From contig NC_087080.1 in assembly GCF_026151205.1 (NCBI RefSeq), forward strand, positions 8,397,720 through 8,461,719: a stretch of 64,000 nt of DNA, given 5' to 3'. A program made the translations under genes and the position numbers. The stretch is from Bolinopsis microptera. Taxonomy: Eukaryota > Ctenophora > Tentaculata > Lobata > Bolinopsidae. The notes under the pieces were generated by a model, which ran no database searches, was not told the DNA's origin, and saw only the letters and a program-made list of their open reading frames with translations. Shown one piece after another: positions 40,211 through 56,617 of the stretch; the first letter of the stretch is position 1, and each line of letters begins with the position of its first letter.

Positions 40211-42584
40211 TTAATATTCAACGGACGTCTGCGAATTCTGTATCGAGAACTCAGTTCTTGGCTCGGTAAATTCGGAGGTTTCCTCAGAGTACTCTTTGAA
40301 GAACGCCAGCAGAGCTTGAAACTGGATCCTCTCATCGGGGGTGTCTGCCCAACATTTCAGCAACACTTCCCATAAACCCTGCAAGATATTTAATTAAATA
40401 CAGGGTGGGCCAAAAGTCATTGGGCATACGTTGGCCTTAACAGCTCAGCTTCACTGCGTGCCCAATTGAAATAATTCTTTCTGGTATGACTTACTACCAC
40501 CACTGGTTCGGGGAATTTGTCAAATCGAAAAATATTCGAGTTAATTTTTTCAAAGATATTTAAACACTTTACTTCCCACAAACCCTGCAAGATATTTAAT
40601 TAATATAATTGATTAATAATTATAATTATAGTCTTGATGATGATGATGCTGTTTTAGCTAATTTTGGTCACCTTCCTTCTGGCTGACCATTTACGCGAGT
40701 ATCCAGTTGGAAGCTCCCTATTCGCCAATTACACTTGTAGTGTCGTGGAAGCTTTGAACGTTATGGAAATTAAAGAACCCCGAATGTCAATCCGTATTTT
40801 TAAAATGTGTACTCACGTCCGGACAGAGATGAGGTCGGTCGAGACGCTCTCCCTTACAAATGTTAACCATGACTTGCTGGTTAGTAAGATGCTGGTACGG
40901 CAGAGCACCAAATGAGAATACCTGGGTGGTAATAGTGATCAAATGGAGGAGTTCTTTTAATAAATCTATTTAGTATCAATACTAACATTGGTGGACATGA
41001 TTGTTCTGAGTATGTGTATAATTAGTAGTATAGGTATAATACTAACTGCAGAACTATCACAATGCTCAAAAGACAAACCTCCCATGCCAGAATTCCGAAT
41101 GCCCAAACGTCATTAGCAGTAGTGTATCTTCCATAGGTTAGAGCTTCTGGTGCCATCCACTTGATCGGCACCATCCCTCCTTCCTGATATTGGATACAAA
41201 TTATTAGCAAATCAGAGTGTAGAGTACAAGCTATTAAGATAGGTTACTTATAACTATTTTATCATCATTACCACCTCATTTGTTATTATAAGACATAATG
41301 TTTAAAAGTTATCACAAAACCTACCTTCTTATAATAATTCTTATCGTTGGCGGATGTGTCTCTGGACAAACCAAAGTCTGCTAGCTTCACTTGTAGGTTC
41401 TTTCCGACCAAGCAGTTCCTCGCGCTGACGTCTCTGTGCACCATATTATTGGTGGCAAGGTATTCCAGCGCATCACACGGCTGGGAGTAATCAGTAATAT
41501 CGTTACAAAATGCCATTACATATTATGCATTATGTTAAGTATAATCATTTTGGGACATTTTAATTTGGAATATACACCAAGTTACATAAATTAACATAAA
41601 TTAACTATACCTGCTGGCACATCCAGGCAAGCTGTCCTACACTCAGACCTCCCAGTGGTTCCTCCTGCAGTTGAGGGAAGGTTAATTAAAGGAAAATAAA
41701 TAAACCTGTTTACTTAGTGATTAGCAAAAATTCTAATTTATGGCAGATTGGTGTTCAGTTTTAATTGCTCTTGATAACACCATTTTCCTACCCTGGATGG
41801 AGCAAATTGATTGAGGTAGCTGTTAAGCTGTCCGTTCTCCATGTACTCCATGATTATGTAGAAGGGCAGGGTCAGAGCACAGATTCCCAACAAGTTGACG
41901 ATGTTTCTGTGTTTCAACGTCACCATCACCTCCATCTCCTTCTCAAAATCAAGCAGTGCCGAGACCTCTATTCCTGGACAGAAAAGTGTGATGTATTAGA
42001 GACCGTAGAGACCCTGTATTAGAGACCGTAGAGACCCTCATGGCCGAAACAGTTAGCAAAATGGAGTGTCTCCGAAAAATGTGTGATATTTAATTTAGAA
42101 TTATTAGAACCTTGTTCTTTGATCGTCTTAATGGCGACGGGTTGGATGATCCCGAATTCATTCGGCATCTGTCCCAACAAGACCAATCCAAAGTTTCCCT
42201 CGCCAAGTGTTTGCTTTATTTGTATTTTCGACTTATCTTTTTCCCACGCTGAGTGCTTTTTCTTAATCTGAAAATTTGTTGTTGCAAAACCATTCAGTGA
42301 TGATATTTTGCGGTTGAGCAAATGTGCAAATTAATAATAGTACTGTGAAATAAGGGCTGCGCGACAGTTCTGTTACTTTCATTAGATACTCATTACTGTT
42401 CTTTTGTATGGCACAAATATAAACACTGTACACCACTAAACCCAGTTCTCACCCGGTCCATGATGCTGTTAACTGTCTCCATGGCCAACAAGAACGCATC
42501 AGCTGCTACCCTGTCTCCGTCGAAGTCATTGGATGTTTGTCTTGCTGCCATTATAGCGTTCCGTGTCTCCACCATCCGGATACT
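40211..42584 (-). CDS. Tyrosine-kinase module, shared cytoplasmic part of a receptor locus
   Basis: Minus-strand exons: 42584-42453, 42267-42111, 41973-41792, 41664-41611, 41480-41325, 41183-41079, 40921-40817, 40378-40211 (stop). All are GT/AG with matching phases, 352 residues. A juxtamembrane segment ([16 protein letters not shown]) precedes a complete kinase: glycine loop GEGNFG, beta-3 lysine VAIKTI, alpha-C glutamate [15 protein letters not shown] catalytic loop, ADFGLSRD, an activation loop with paired tyrosines (NYYKK), WMAPEAL, and [15 protein letters not shown] through [10 protein letters not shown]. All catalytic residues are intact; the loop reads HRDVSARN instead of the common HRDLAARN. 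A further possible exon, 42699-42639, ends in phase 0 but does not start in a phase matching the upstream donors. The module lacks its own signal peptide and membrane segment, so it needs an upstream exon. Confidence 0.9.
40399..40570 (+). mobile_element. Mariner-like short repeat inside the last kinase intron
   Basis: A complete copy of the repeat split at 2075-2181/7657-7748. Starts tacagggtgggccaaaag. It is flanked by two copies of about 36 bp (near 40363-40399 and 40568-40605) that contain the 3' splice site of the last kinase exon. No transposase coding seen. Confidence 0.7.
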
Positions 42585-42905
42585 CTGAAGTTAGTGAAAT
42601 TCAGAGGATATTTTATAATAATCTCGCCAAAATCCCACCTGAATCCTACGGATACTACTACAAGTACGCATTGGTGGGGATCGGTTATCTGTTATTGCTC
42701 TAAAAGGTAATCTATAAAGATAAATTTTATGAAACAATATCACTAGCCCTGCACGATAAATGAGCATTTGGACCGTTTGATAAACAACATAAGTCATGCT
42801 TTAACAGATTTCGCCAATAGGGTCGATCTTTCAGGTGATATCGTAATGAAATTGTGAACAAACGTTTGCATTGAATTCTGGCGCAGTTTTTGATGTCCTC
42901 GAAAA

Positions 42906-42986
42906 TGTCCTAAGCCAAAATTTAACTTTTGTTTTATTAACTTTTGTTTTATTAACTTTTGTTTTATTAACTTTTGTTTTATTAAC
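42906..42986 (+). repeat. 15-bp tandem repeat (attaacttttgtttt)
   Basis: About five units in the intron between ectodomain unit A and the kinase module. Confidence 0.8.
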
Positions 42987-43063
42987 TGGAAAGGTTTTTG
43001 GACCTCAAAGTCACAAAACAAATTAAGGCATATTTTTTCGTTTTTCTGATGTTTTATTTTCTA

Positions 43064-54880: not shown

Positions 54881-55247
54881 GATATACCAGATATTGTTCA
54901 TTTCCCCACCAGTGGTCAGGTTTAAAGTTCAGCGGTATTCTTGTGGTGTTGAACATGAACAACAAATGTTAGAAACACAGTTCAGAAGAACCACAGTATA
55001 AGGACAATTGTACTGCAGTACTACAAGTAACAATCGGGCACACTGCTATACTGTATGTGAGAATCTGTTTACAGACTCTTGACCCGTCTGACTCATCGTG
55101 TTAGAATATTGTTAGAGGATTCTCTGGAAATTCTTTCAATAATGAGTACGTCTCTTCAGACAATCTCCGCAGTCATCGTGGCCCTCTTGGAGACATTTTG
55201 ACAGCTAATTTTACACGTCTAAATCTTATTGTTAGCCGGTAAACTTA

Positions 55248-55436
55248 CCCACTACTCGTACTTACCCACTAATCTTACTTACCCACTATTCTTACTTACC
55301 CAATATTCTTACTTACCCAATATTCTTACTTACCCACTATTCTTACTAACCCACTAATCTTACTTACCCACTATTCTTACTTACCCACTATTCTTACTAA
55401 CCCACTACTCGTACTTACCCACTATTCTCACTTACC
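55248..55436 (-). repeat. 17-bp minisatellite made of 5' splice-site consensus
   Basis: Eleven units of 17 bp immediately downstream of the unit E transmembrane exon. On the minus strand each reads about GGGTAAGTAAGAATAGT; nine keep GGGTAAGT and two have GGGTTAGT. The true donor ACG|GTAAGT is in register with the array, as if the repeat grew out of the splice site. Confidence 0.85.
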
Positions 55437-56617
55437 GTAGTGAGTCTGACCCGTTGTCTCCTTCTGATAACAATCCCTACAAGGAGCAGTATAAGCGTTG
55501 CCGCGAACACTGTACCTCCCAACACCCCAACTGTGGTTATCCAGCTGCGATCTATTATCTGAGTGTGGAATCTCTTTTGAATTATATTTAAGTTTTTCGA
55601 TGTACGTTTAGAATTGATGCTAACTTATAGAACTTTATTAACACATTTAATGTAAAAGCACACACTATTTCTTCTCACCTGAACAGTAACCCTCGCCTCC
55701 GACCTGAGCTGATGAGCGTGGCCCGTGTATCTTGTCCCACAGTAGTAGGTATAATGAACTTCCTCAAAATCCTCAGTTTCACGAGTGGTCAATGTTATAA
55801 CCCATTTAGGTGGCACTTCAGTTTTTATACACGGGACTTCAGGCCCACATTTTATTTCTTCCTCGTCCGATTCAAAGTCTGTCTTTCTTGTCCATCTTAG
55901 ATATCTAAATGCTCTTTTACTCCCAAGAGAACAGGTCAGATTATAGCTTGTCCCAACTTTGACCTCGGTGAATGTTGGAGTTAGATTAACTTCAAATAAT
56001 TGGTCCACTTTAGGTATCTGGTAATAGTTAGACACCAAACTTGTGTTGTTCGTCAGATGTGTGACACACGATAAGTTGGCGTTAACATGTGATTCGTAGT
56101 GCAGAATGATATCAAAAGTTTTTGTCGGTGGCTGGGTTTTATTGTGAGGATCAGGATATGGAGAAGAGAGGTCTCCCTTATAAAACACCCCGTTGGTAAC
56201 AAGCAAAGTGTTTTTCACGGTCAATCTAAAGAGTTCTTCACAATCAGAAGGTAATCTCGTGTCCAGCTTACACTGAAAAGTTACAGTTTCGTTTTCATCC
56301 CACAAAACTTCAAGAGGGTCGAATACCTCCAAAGTGTAAGCCTGGAACCTTCCAGGATTTGAGTAAAATGTTCCGATGTCCGAACAGATCTCCTTTGTCA
56401 GCTCCACGTTATCTATCTCGACAGTCCACCTTCTTTTGCTTCGGTCTCCAAATGTGTTCTCGAGTTGTGAGGATGAGTTAGAATCCAAGGGTGCTTCCCA
56501 GTTGGTTGCTGTGCTGGGTGTGGTTTGGAGCAGGGAAGTGTCTGTCTGATTTTCTGATGAGTTTACAACTCCAATAAAAGTAAGGAAATTTGTTCCAAAC
56601 AAGAACAAGGAGATCAT
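55436..56617 (-). CDS. Receptor ectodomain-TM unit E (two exons, two Ig-like domains)
   Basis: Exons 56617-55679 (313 codons, donor CAG|GTGAGA, phase 0) and 55558-55436 (41 codons, donor ACG|GTAAGT, phase 0). Chosen start: Met at 56617 (MISLFLFGTNFLTFIGVVNS, a signal peptide), although the frame is open from 56764. Ig-like domains carry FQCKLDT/LSCVTH and LTCSLGS/YYCGTR, with many glycosylation sites. The second exon encodes IIDRSWITTVGVLGG, the transmembrane helix and RRRQRVRLTT. It differs from A-D in having an intron just before the membrane segment. Confidence 0.8.

Follow-up and report, generated by a model that had tools for sequence, protein, structure and literature searches.

In a 64-kb stretch of the genome of the lobate ctenophore Bolinopsis microptera (the window), five ectodomain units (A to E), each with its own start codon, lie in tandem and in one orientation upstream of one eight-exon tyrosine kinase (K1-K8). 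We propose, with a probability of about 0.7 and on the basis of sequence, that this locus is a variable-first-exon receptor tyrosine kinase, with a variable/constant design like that of the protocadherins and UGT1. The features are as follows.

56617 to 55679, minus strand: unit E exon 1, which codes for the N-terminus, the stalk and two Ig-like domains
55558 to 55436, minus strand: unit E exon 2, which codes for the membrane helix and the tail; donor GT at 55435
54080 to 52944, minus strand: unit D, candidate variable first exon (linked to K1 in protein P0002), with its donor GT at 52943
49097 to 48552, minus strand: unit C, short candidate variable first exon, donor GT at 48551
47470 to 46196, minus strand: unit B, candidate variable first exon, donor GT at 46195
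44875 to 43574, minus strand: unit A, candidate variable first exon, donor GT at 43573
42584 to 42453, minus strand: K1, first shared exon, juxtamembrane, entered in phase 0
42267 to 42111, minus strand: K2, shared kinase exon (GEGNFG loop, VAIK)
41973 to 41792, minus strand: K3, shared kinase exon
41664 to 41611, minus strand: K4, shared kinase exon
41480 to 41325, minus strand: K5, shared kinase exon (a stretch of 11 protein letters, not shown, and a tandem YY)
41183 to 41079, minus strand: K6, shared kinase exon (APE)
40921 to 40817, minus strand: K7, shared kinase exon
40378 to 40211, minus strand: K8, last shared exon, stop codon

The units have a common build, in which the start is followed by a hydrophobic N-terminus, one or two Ig folds, a hydrophobic membrane helix at the end of the unit, a basic tail and the donor GTAAGT. 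Unit A has an S/T-rich stalk before its two Ig-like domains, unit B has the same layout, and unit C has a single Ig-like domain and no stalk. The donor is in phase 0 in all five units, which matches the phase-0 entry of K1, and once the 120-nt intron that splits unit E has been removed all five are open, with Ig cysteines, helix and donor kept. This layout is the one described in the initial annotation, of which three details had to be corrected: E contains an intron, the start of D is at 54080, and C has one Ig domain. The K1 acceptor scores in the top 1.3% of the 1,097 AGs on the same strand between 40 and 57 kb, and the kinase translation matches PF07714 with 278 bits and has VAIK, HRD, DFG and APE. 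Scans of the 64-kb window, in which a satellite occupies 58-64 kb to the right of the units, returned neither a second kinase nor a sixth unit; the claims that one kinase lies downstream, with a first exon that starts at 42584 in phase 0, and that no kinase lies between the units, both stand. Within the window, the locus is in other words a tandem set of large paralogous first exons, E being split by one intron, with one constant exon set downstream.

Units A and D are modelled as Ig folds by structure prediction. A Foldseek search and a second look gave antibody-like V domains, among which the nearest receptor family could not be told apart and for which the two-domain alignments had low TM-scores. 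Unit A has an orthologue, P0007, that is 89% identical over 299 residues, and unit B has one, P0010, that is 86% identical over 285 residues. The contigs of both belong to another assembly and are 496,999 bases long, and the two orthologues are probably on a single contig there. For the paralogues A and B, three methods put dN/dS at 0.41 to 0.52, with a dS near 1. The comparison between paralogues suggested earlier can be quoted for this pair only, because synonymous sites in A-C, B-C, D-E and A-D are near or beyond saturation. The stalk and the outer Ig domain had been thought to vary most; between A and B this holds for the stalk but not for the outer Ig domain.

To see how the locus would work, consider a transcript that derives from one of the units. 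Each of A to E would be a self-contained 5' end, with start codon, signal peptide, Ig-type ectodomain, membrane helix and phase-0 donor, while K1-K8 would supply the juxtamembrane segment and the kinase to every unit. The donor of the unit would be joined to the K1 acceptor, and any units in between would be removed as intron. The outcome would be different ectodomains that evoke one common intracellular signal. For this, A, B, C and E would be spliced to K1 as D is in P0002, and each unit would have its own promoter or trans-splice acceptor; the ectodomains would presumably bind different partners.

The splice of D to K1 is found in P0002, a public Bolinopsis microptera protein of 699 residues, 643 of which correspond to D + K1-K8. 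A sponge origin of the DNA, to which the Ig-kinase layout had pointed at first, was given up on account of the ctenophore proteins among the matches, P0002 being an exact one from Bolinopsis. The gene model of P0002 passes over A, B and C, D being the fourth unit from the kinase, and this contradicts a locus in which the kinase is joined to A alone. D + K in P0002 has what defines a receptor tyrosine kinase, i.e., an ectodomain, one membrane helix and a kinase with its catalytic motifs. The first 56 residues of P0002 come from another frame, and in the model an intron of 91 nt interrupts the stalk; the hydrophobic N-terminus of D is therefore absent from this model. The public name of P0002 is Ror, and this name is not supported by the ectodomain. 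Ror receptors have a Frizzled-type CRD and a kringle domain in their ectodomain, and the ROR matches in the protein search carry PF01392 and PF00051, but Pfam at E values up to 1 lists neither domain in A, B, C, D or E exon 1.

A second line of evidence comes from Mnemiopsis. In a tree of 12 kinases, the window kinase pairs with the kinase of Mnemiopsis P0001 (support 91/94, below the star mark of the tool), to which it is 86% identical over 283 columns; the two would be orthologues, as judged from the protein tree and not from synteny. In a tree of 21 ectodomains, from which P0002 was left out since it represents the same locus as D + K, the ectodomain of P0001 falls within the clade of A, B and C (99/99, starred) and not with D and E. 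In nine full-length rows of this tree the cut lay 95 residues short of the glycine loop, and most of the membrane helix was lost with it; 11 of the 120 matches listed, besides P0002, were used in a tree. As P0001 has an ectodomain of A/B/C type and P0002 has D, the annotations of the two genera pair a single kinase lineage with two kinds of ectodomain. The two proteins together suggest that more than one unit is in use, and to this extent they uphold the earlier proposal of alternative first exons with a common kinase.

The same junction can be followed in other proteins. Directly past it, five of seven kinase-less relatives have VS, as GTAAGT would encode, while one of the other two ends one residue beyond the junction and one inside its membrane helix. 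Serine follows the junction in all nine other full-length relatives inspected, as it does in K1. Judged by these residues, the junction between ectodomain and kinase is kept across relatives.

It may be asked whether D, perhaps together with E, is alone in serving the kinase as a first exon, while A, B and C are genes in their own right for membrane proteins without a kinase (decoys or adhesion proteins), nested in a 10.4-kb intron and ending by intron retention or intronic polyadenylation. Nested intronic genes are known, in hundreds, from the ctenophore Hormiphora, according to the excerpted report (PMC8527503). The protein searches, each of which scored about 8,000 candidates sharing most words, gave D-kinase as the only Bolinopsis form of this kinase among the matches listed, with no protein that joins A, B, C or E to it, and this includes A, the unit nearest to the kinase. 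AATAAA, which would suit short kinase-less products, occurs 61 nt past the donor of A and 33 nt past that of B; such signals, present within 65 nt in two of the five units, were rejected as proof of short products, as at least two of five are expected by chance with a probability of about 6%. Against independent genes, strong phase-0 donors that match K1 have been kept in A, B and C, and the closest Mnemiopsis kinase is joined to an ectodomain of their type. The residues past the donor are also less alike than the exons, with 5 of 9 identical after the donor and 89% before it for A and P0007, and with a one-residue length change just past the donor for B and P0010, although the shortness of the tails makes this weak evidence. 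We regard such nested genes as unlikely.

Another explanation retains the proposed layout but lets a long pre-mRNA be cut by spliced-leader trans-splicing, which would give each unit its 5' end in place of one promoter per unit. According to excerpts of the Hormiphora study, spliced leaders are present on at least 56% of Iso-Seq reads in that ctenophore, and the leader motif is present in the Mnemiopsis genome (PMC8527503). Acceptor-like sites ahead of A, C and E equal the acceptors of the kinase exons in quality, but those upstream of B and D are weaker. The Hormiphora leader, as 41 nt or as its 21-nt core with up to 3 mismatches, has no match in the window; the leader gene may be located elsewhere, and the Bolinopsis leader may differ. 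A common promoter motif was not found, which would favour trans-splicing and weighs against the main reading: in the five 1,200-nt upstream stretches, 8 nine-mers occur in three and none in more than three, a raw count without shuffled control. We regard trans-splicing as the source of the 5' ends as quite improbable. That every unit but D is an unused copy decaying into a pseudogene, or that these units are an artefact of the assembly, would fit the stalkless, single-domain unit C and the missing A-, B-, C- and E-kinase proteins among the matches listed, but it is very hard to reconcile with five open units that keep cysteines, helix and donor, with the A-B dN/dS, and with the recurrence of A and B orthologues on the contig or contigs of another assembly.

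How the variable-first-exon locus relates to known systems can now be stated. Vertebrate protocadherin alpha and gamma clusters are described, in the portions of the cited articles used here, as rows of large variable exons that precede one constant exon set, every variable exon coding for a complete ectodomain, a membrane helix and a short tail in the cytoplasm (PMC5775551, PMC1885805). The Bolinopsis locus has this arrangement, with five units in place of more than a dozen, in a distant phylum, and with promoter choice as a proposal. Its ectodomains are of Ig type and its constant part is a tyrosine kinase; Pfam at E values up to 1 lists no cadherin family in A, B, C, D or E exon 1, so that the cadherin repeats of clustered protocadherins are lacking. 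UGT1 and GCNT2 similarly have tandem variable first exons and a common downstream exon set, but encode enzymes and not a receptor, and the excerpted text reports for UGT1 a conserved upstream motif of a kind not found at the Bolinopsis units (PMC1885805). Chelicerate sDscams belong to the Ig superfamily and have 5' tandem cassettes with alternative promoters, and their cassette duplication is inversely related to gene duplication; their cassettes comprise only one or two N-terminal Ig domains, and the excerpts describe no kinase (PMC5775551). The cassettes of sDscam are without membrane helix, whereas each Bolinopsis unit has its own. The receptor tyrosine kinase of Geodia cydonium, an early-branching animal, combines an S/T-rich stalk and two Ig-like domains with a tyrosine kinase, as here, but to our knowledge it has one polymorphic ectodomain per gene and no first-exon array.

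Six full-length relatives (P0003-P0006, P0014 and P0015) share with the locus a D/E-like ectodomain, the same residue past the junction and a kinase that is 58-69% identical, but they have ectodomain and kinase in one open reading frame. In these the whole receptor seems to have been multiplied, rather than the ectodomain alone. From here one may tentatively go further and suggest, as a conjecture that we would not favour over its negation, that in lobate ctenophores a receptor tyrosine kinase has independently evolved into a protocadherin-like variable/constant gene, in which each cell would choose, by promoter or trans-splicing, among at least five Ig ectodomains for one kinase. Recognition of cell identity or of non-self would then lead straight to tyrosine phosphorylation, whereas in other relatives it would be the receptor as a whole that was multiplied.

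Ctenophores are held to be the sister lineage of all other animals (PMC11797021, PMC11184263, both in excerpt), and variable/constant receptor loci are described in the excerpted literature for vertebrate protocadherins and chelicerate sDscams (PMC5775551). If the reading proposed here is true, the variable/constant gene design had a further independent origin, in a ctenophore. We know of no earlier variable receptor with an enzyme as its constant part, and the Bolinopsis locus would be the first. Several recognition modules would then share one kinase, and there would be, for ctenophores, a concrete family of candidate receptors for recognition.

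The five units lie on the minus strand where the initial annotation had placed them (A 43574-44875, B 46196-47470, C 48552-49097, D 52944-54095, E 55436-56617). Each is a candidate variable first exon for a hydrophobic N-terminus, an Ig-like ectodomain, a membrane helix and a basic tail, and every one ends with GTAAGT in phase 0. Two borders must be redrawn: the codon at 54095, taken as the start of D, is TTG, with the ATG at 54080, and E, taken as a single stretch, is in fact two exons:

56617-55679, minus strand, unit E exon 1, followed by a 120-nt intron
55558-55436, minus strand, unit E exon 2, ending at the E donor

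Unit C has one Ig domain and is without a stalk. By a simple position score the unit donors rank within the top 1% of 1,050 GT dinucleotides, and the acceptor of K1, the first shared kinase exon, at 42584, within the top 1.3% of 1,097 AGs, both on the minus strand between 40 and 57 kb. The kinase, rebuilt from eight exons (K1-K8), has 352 amino acids with the usual catalytic motifs, scores 278 bits against the Pfam tyrosine kinase and is, as had been claimed, the only one found downstream of the units or elsewhere in the window by Tblastn and profile scans of six-frame open frames. In the same frames these scans found no sixth unit, the next profile matches having E values of at least 0.43. 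The intact array before a single kinase within the window is real. Further units may lie to the right of E, since a 15-bp satellite (about 365 copies, 58498-64000) extends beyond E to the window's edge.

Other repeats interrupt the locus. A minisatellite of 42 copies of 32 bp (50561-51903) lies between C and D, and the E donor starts a 17-bp repeat of 11.4 copies (55243-55436, minus strand) with ten GTAAGT motifs, the first being the donor itself and, as read from the sequence, the only one that reaches K1 in frame and free of stops. The acceptor and start of K8 are present twice, at about 40378 and 40584 (minus strand), some 206 nt apart, as if by local duplication or by an insertion with duplicated ends. 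The window also holds:

2367-7150, minus strand, LINE-type element with reverse transcriptase and endonuclease frames
16136-17314, plus strand, oxysterol-binding protein gene, an open frame scoring 240 bits against PF01237
39431-40199, plus strand, weak ankyrin-repeat matches below the Pfam cut-off, adjoining the kinase 3' end

P0002, a public Bolinopsis microptera protein named Ror-like tyrosine kinase, matches unit D plus K1-K8 without a difference over 643 of 699 residues, and its splice from D to K1 spans a 10.4-kb intron that contains C, B and A. By this match the window belongs to B. microptera, a lobate ctenophore, or to something that cannot be told apart from it in this stretch. Its residues 1-56 start at an ATG at 54075 in a frame other than that of D and use a 91-nt intron in the stalk (53908-53818, minus strand), which together leave out D's hydrophobic N-terminus. 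The naming style is presumably that of NCBI automatic annotation, which makes RNA support behind the model likely; the odd N-terminus may mean that RNA data guided the modelling of D transcripts. Three protein searches, each scoring just those candidates with most words in common, gave 6 matches, P0002 being one of them, among 7,994 candidates (query unit A plus kinase), 10 among 7,984, and 2,035 among 7,992 with the best 120 listed. Among the matches listed, from about 8,000 candidates per search, there is no Bolinopsis protein joining A, B, C or E to the kinase, and this includes A, although it is the unit nearest to the kinase.

Units A, B and C could instead be nested genes without a kinase. 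AATAAA occurs 61 nt past the A donor and 33 nt past the B donor, where such a motif at two or more of five units is a 6% chance event. Ctenophores, according to PMC8527503, have both spliced-leader trans-splicing and nested genes, so that nested genes are a fair rival, and the 5' ends of the units could come from trans-splicing as well as from alternative promoters. No motif common to the stretches upstream of the units was found.

Comparison with other ctenophores bears on the sharing of the kinase. In midpoint-rooted trees, the window kinase pairs with that of P0001, a Mnemiopsis receptor kinase (12 rows; 91/94, not starred), while the ectodomain of P0001 falls inside the A/B/C clade, where it is placed at clade level only (21 rows; 99/99, starred), and in the tree of ectodomains the partner of unit D is P0012 (94/92, not starred). 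A single kinase lineage thus carries, as annotated, an ectodomain of the A/B/C type in Mnemiopsis and one of the D type in Bolinopsis, as a shared constant module predicts; the same pattern would result if first exons had been lost or exchanged between Mnemiopsis and Bolinopsis. Orthologues of A (P0007, 89%) and B (P0010, 86%) are on contigs of 496,999 bases each, and therefore probably on one contig; two array members are conserved in another assembly. 'VS' follows the junction directly in five of seven kinase-less relatives (P0007-P0013), as GTAAGT would encode; of the other two, P0009 stops one residue beyond the junction and P0013 within the membrane helix. In nine of nine other full-length relatives inspected, Ser comes first after the junction, the same residue as in K1. 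P0002, which uses the fourth unit, and the cross-genus pattern point to shared use of the kinase, and to the variable/constant mechanism, with each donor spliced to K1, we give a probability of about 0.7.

The expectation that stalk and outer Ig domain vary most holds for the stalk (30% identical) and is not supported for the outer Ig (Ig domains 54% and 53%) in the A-B pair, to which the domain-by-domain comparison applies. For this pair dN/dS is 0.41 (NG86), 0.52 (LWL85) or 0.49 (YN00) at a dS close to 1, and the stalk alone gives about 0.76 by NG86 (0.834/1.096); the remaining pairs are near or past saturation. The A-B values argue against decay and are no test of diversifying selection.

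The closest match in layout is the clustered protocadherins, where a variable exon encodes the ectodomain together with the membrane helix and a short cytoplasmic segment (PMC5775551, PMC1885805); the Bolinopsis locus has another fold, belongs to another phylum and uses a kinase for its constant part. Among the listings and abstract starts from an open-licence full-text library, no paper described such a receptor tyrosine kinase. The term 'tyrosine kinase' is absent from PMC11797021 (Mnemiopsis immune genes) and PMC13231562, and ctenophores are unmentioned in PMC8662651 (holozoan tyrosine kinases).

Another route is suggested by six relatives (P0003-P0006, P0014 and P0015) in which a single protein combines a D/E-like ectodomain with a kinase of 58-69% identity. 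P0003, P0005 and P0006 look like intronless genes, because their source contigs are 153-280 kb; P0004, P0014 and P0015, from contigs below 3 kb, could be transcripts. If the genes of these relatives are intronless, the whole receptor would have been multiplied in that lineage and the ectodomain exons in Bolinopsis, an inverse relation of the sort reported in PMC5775551 for chelicerate sDscam.
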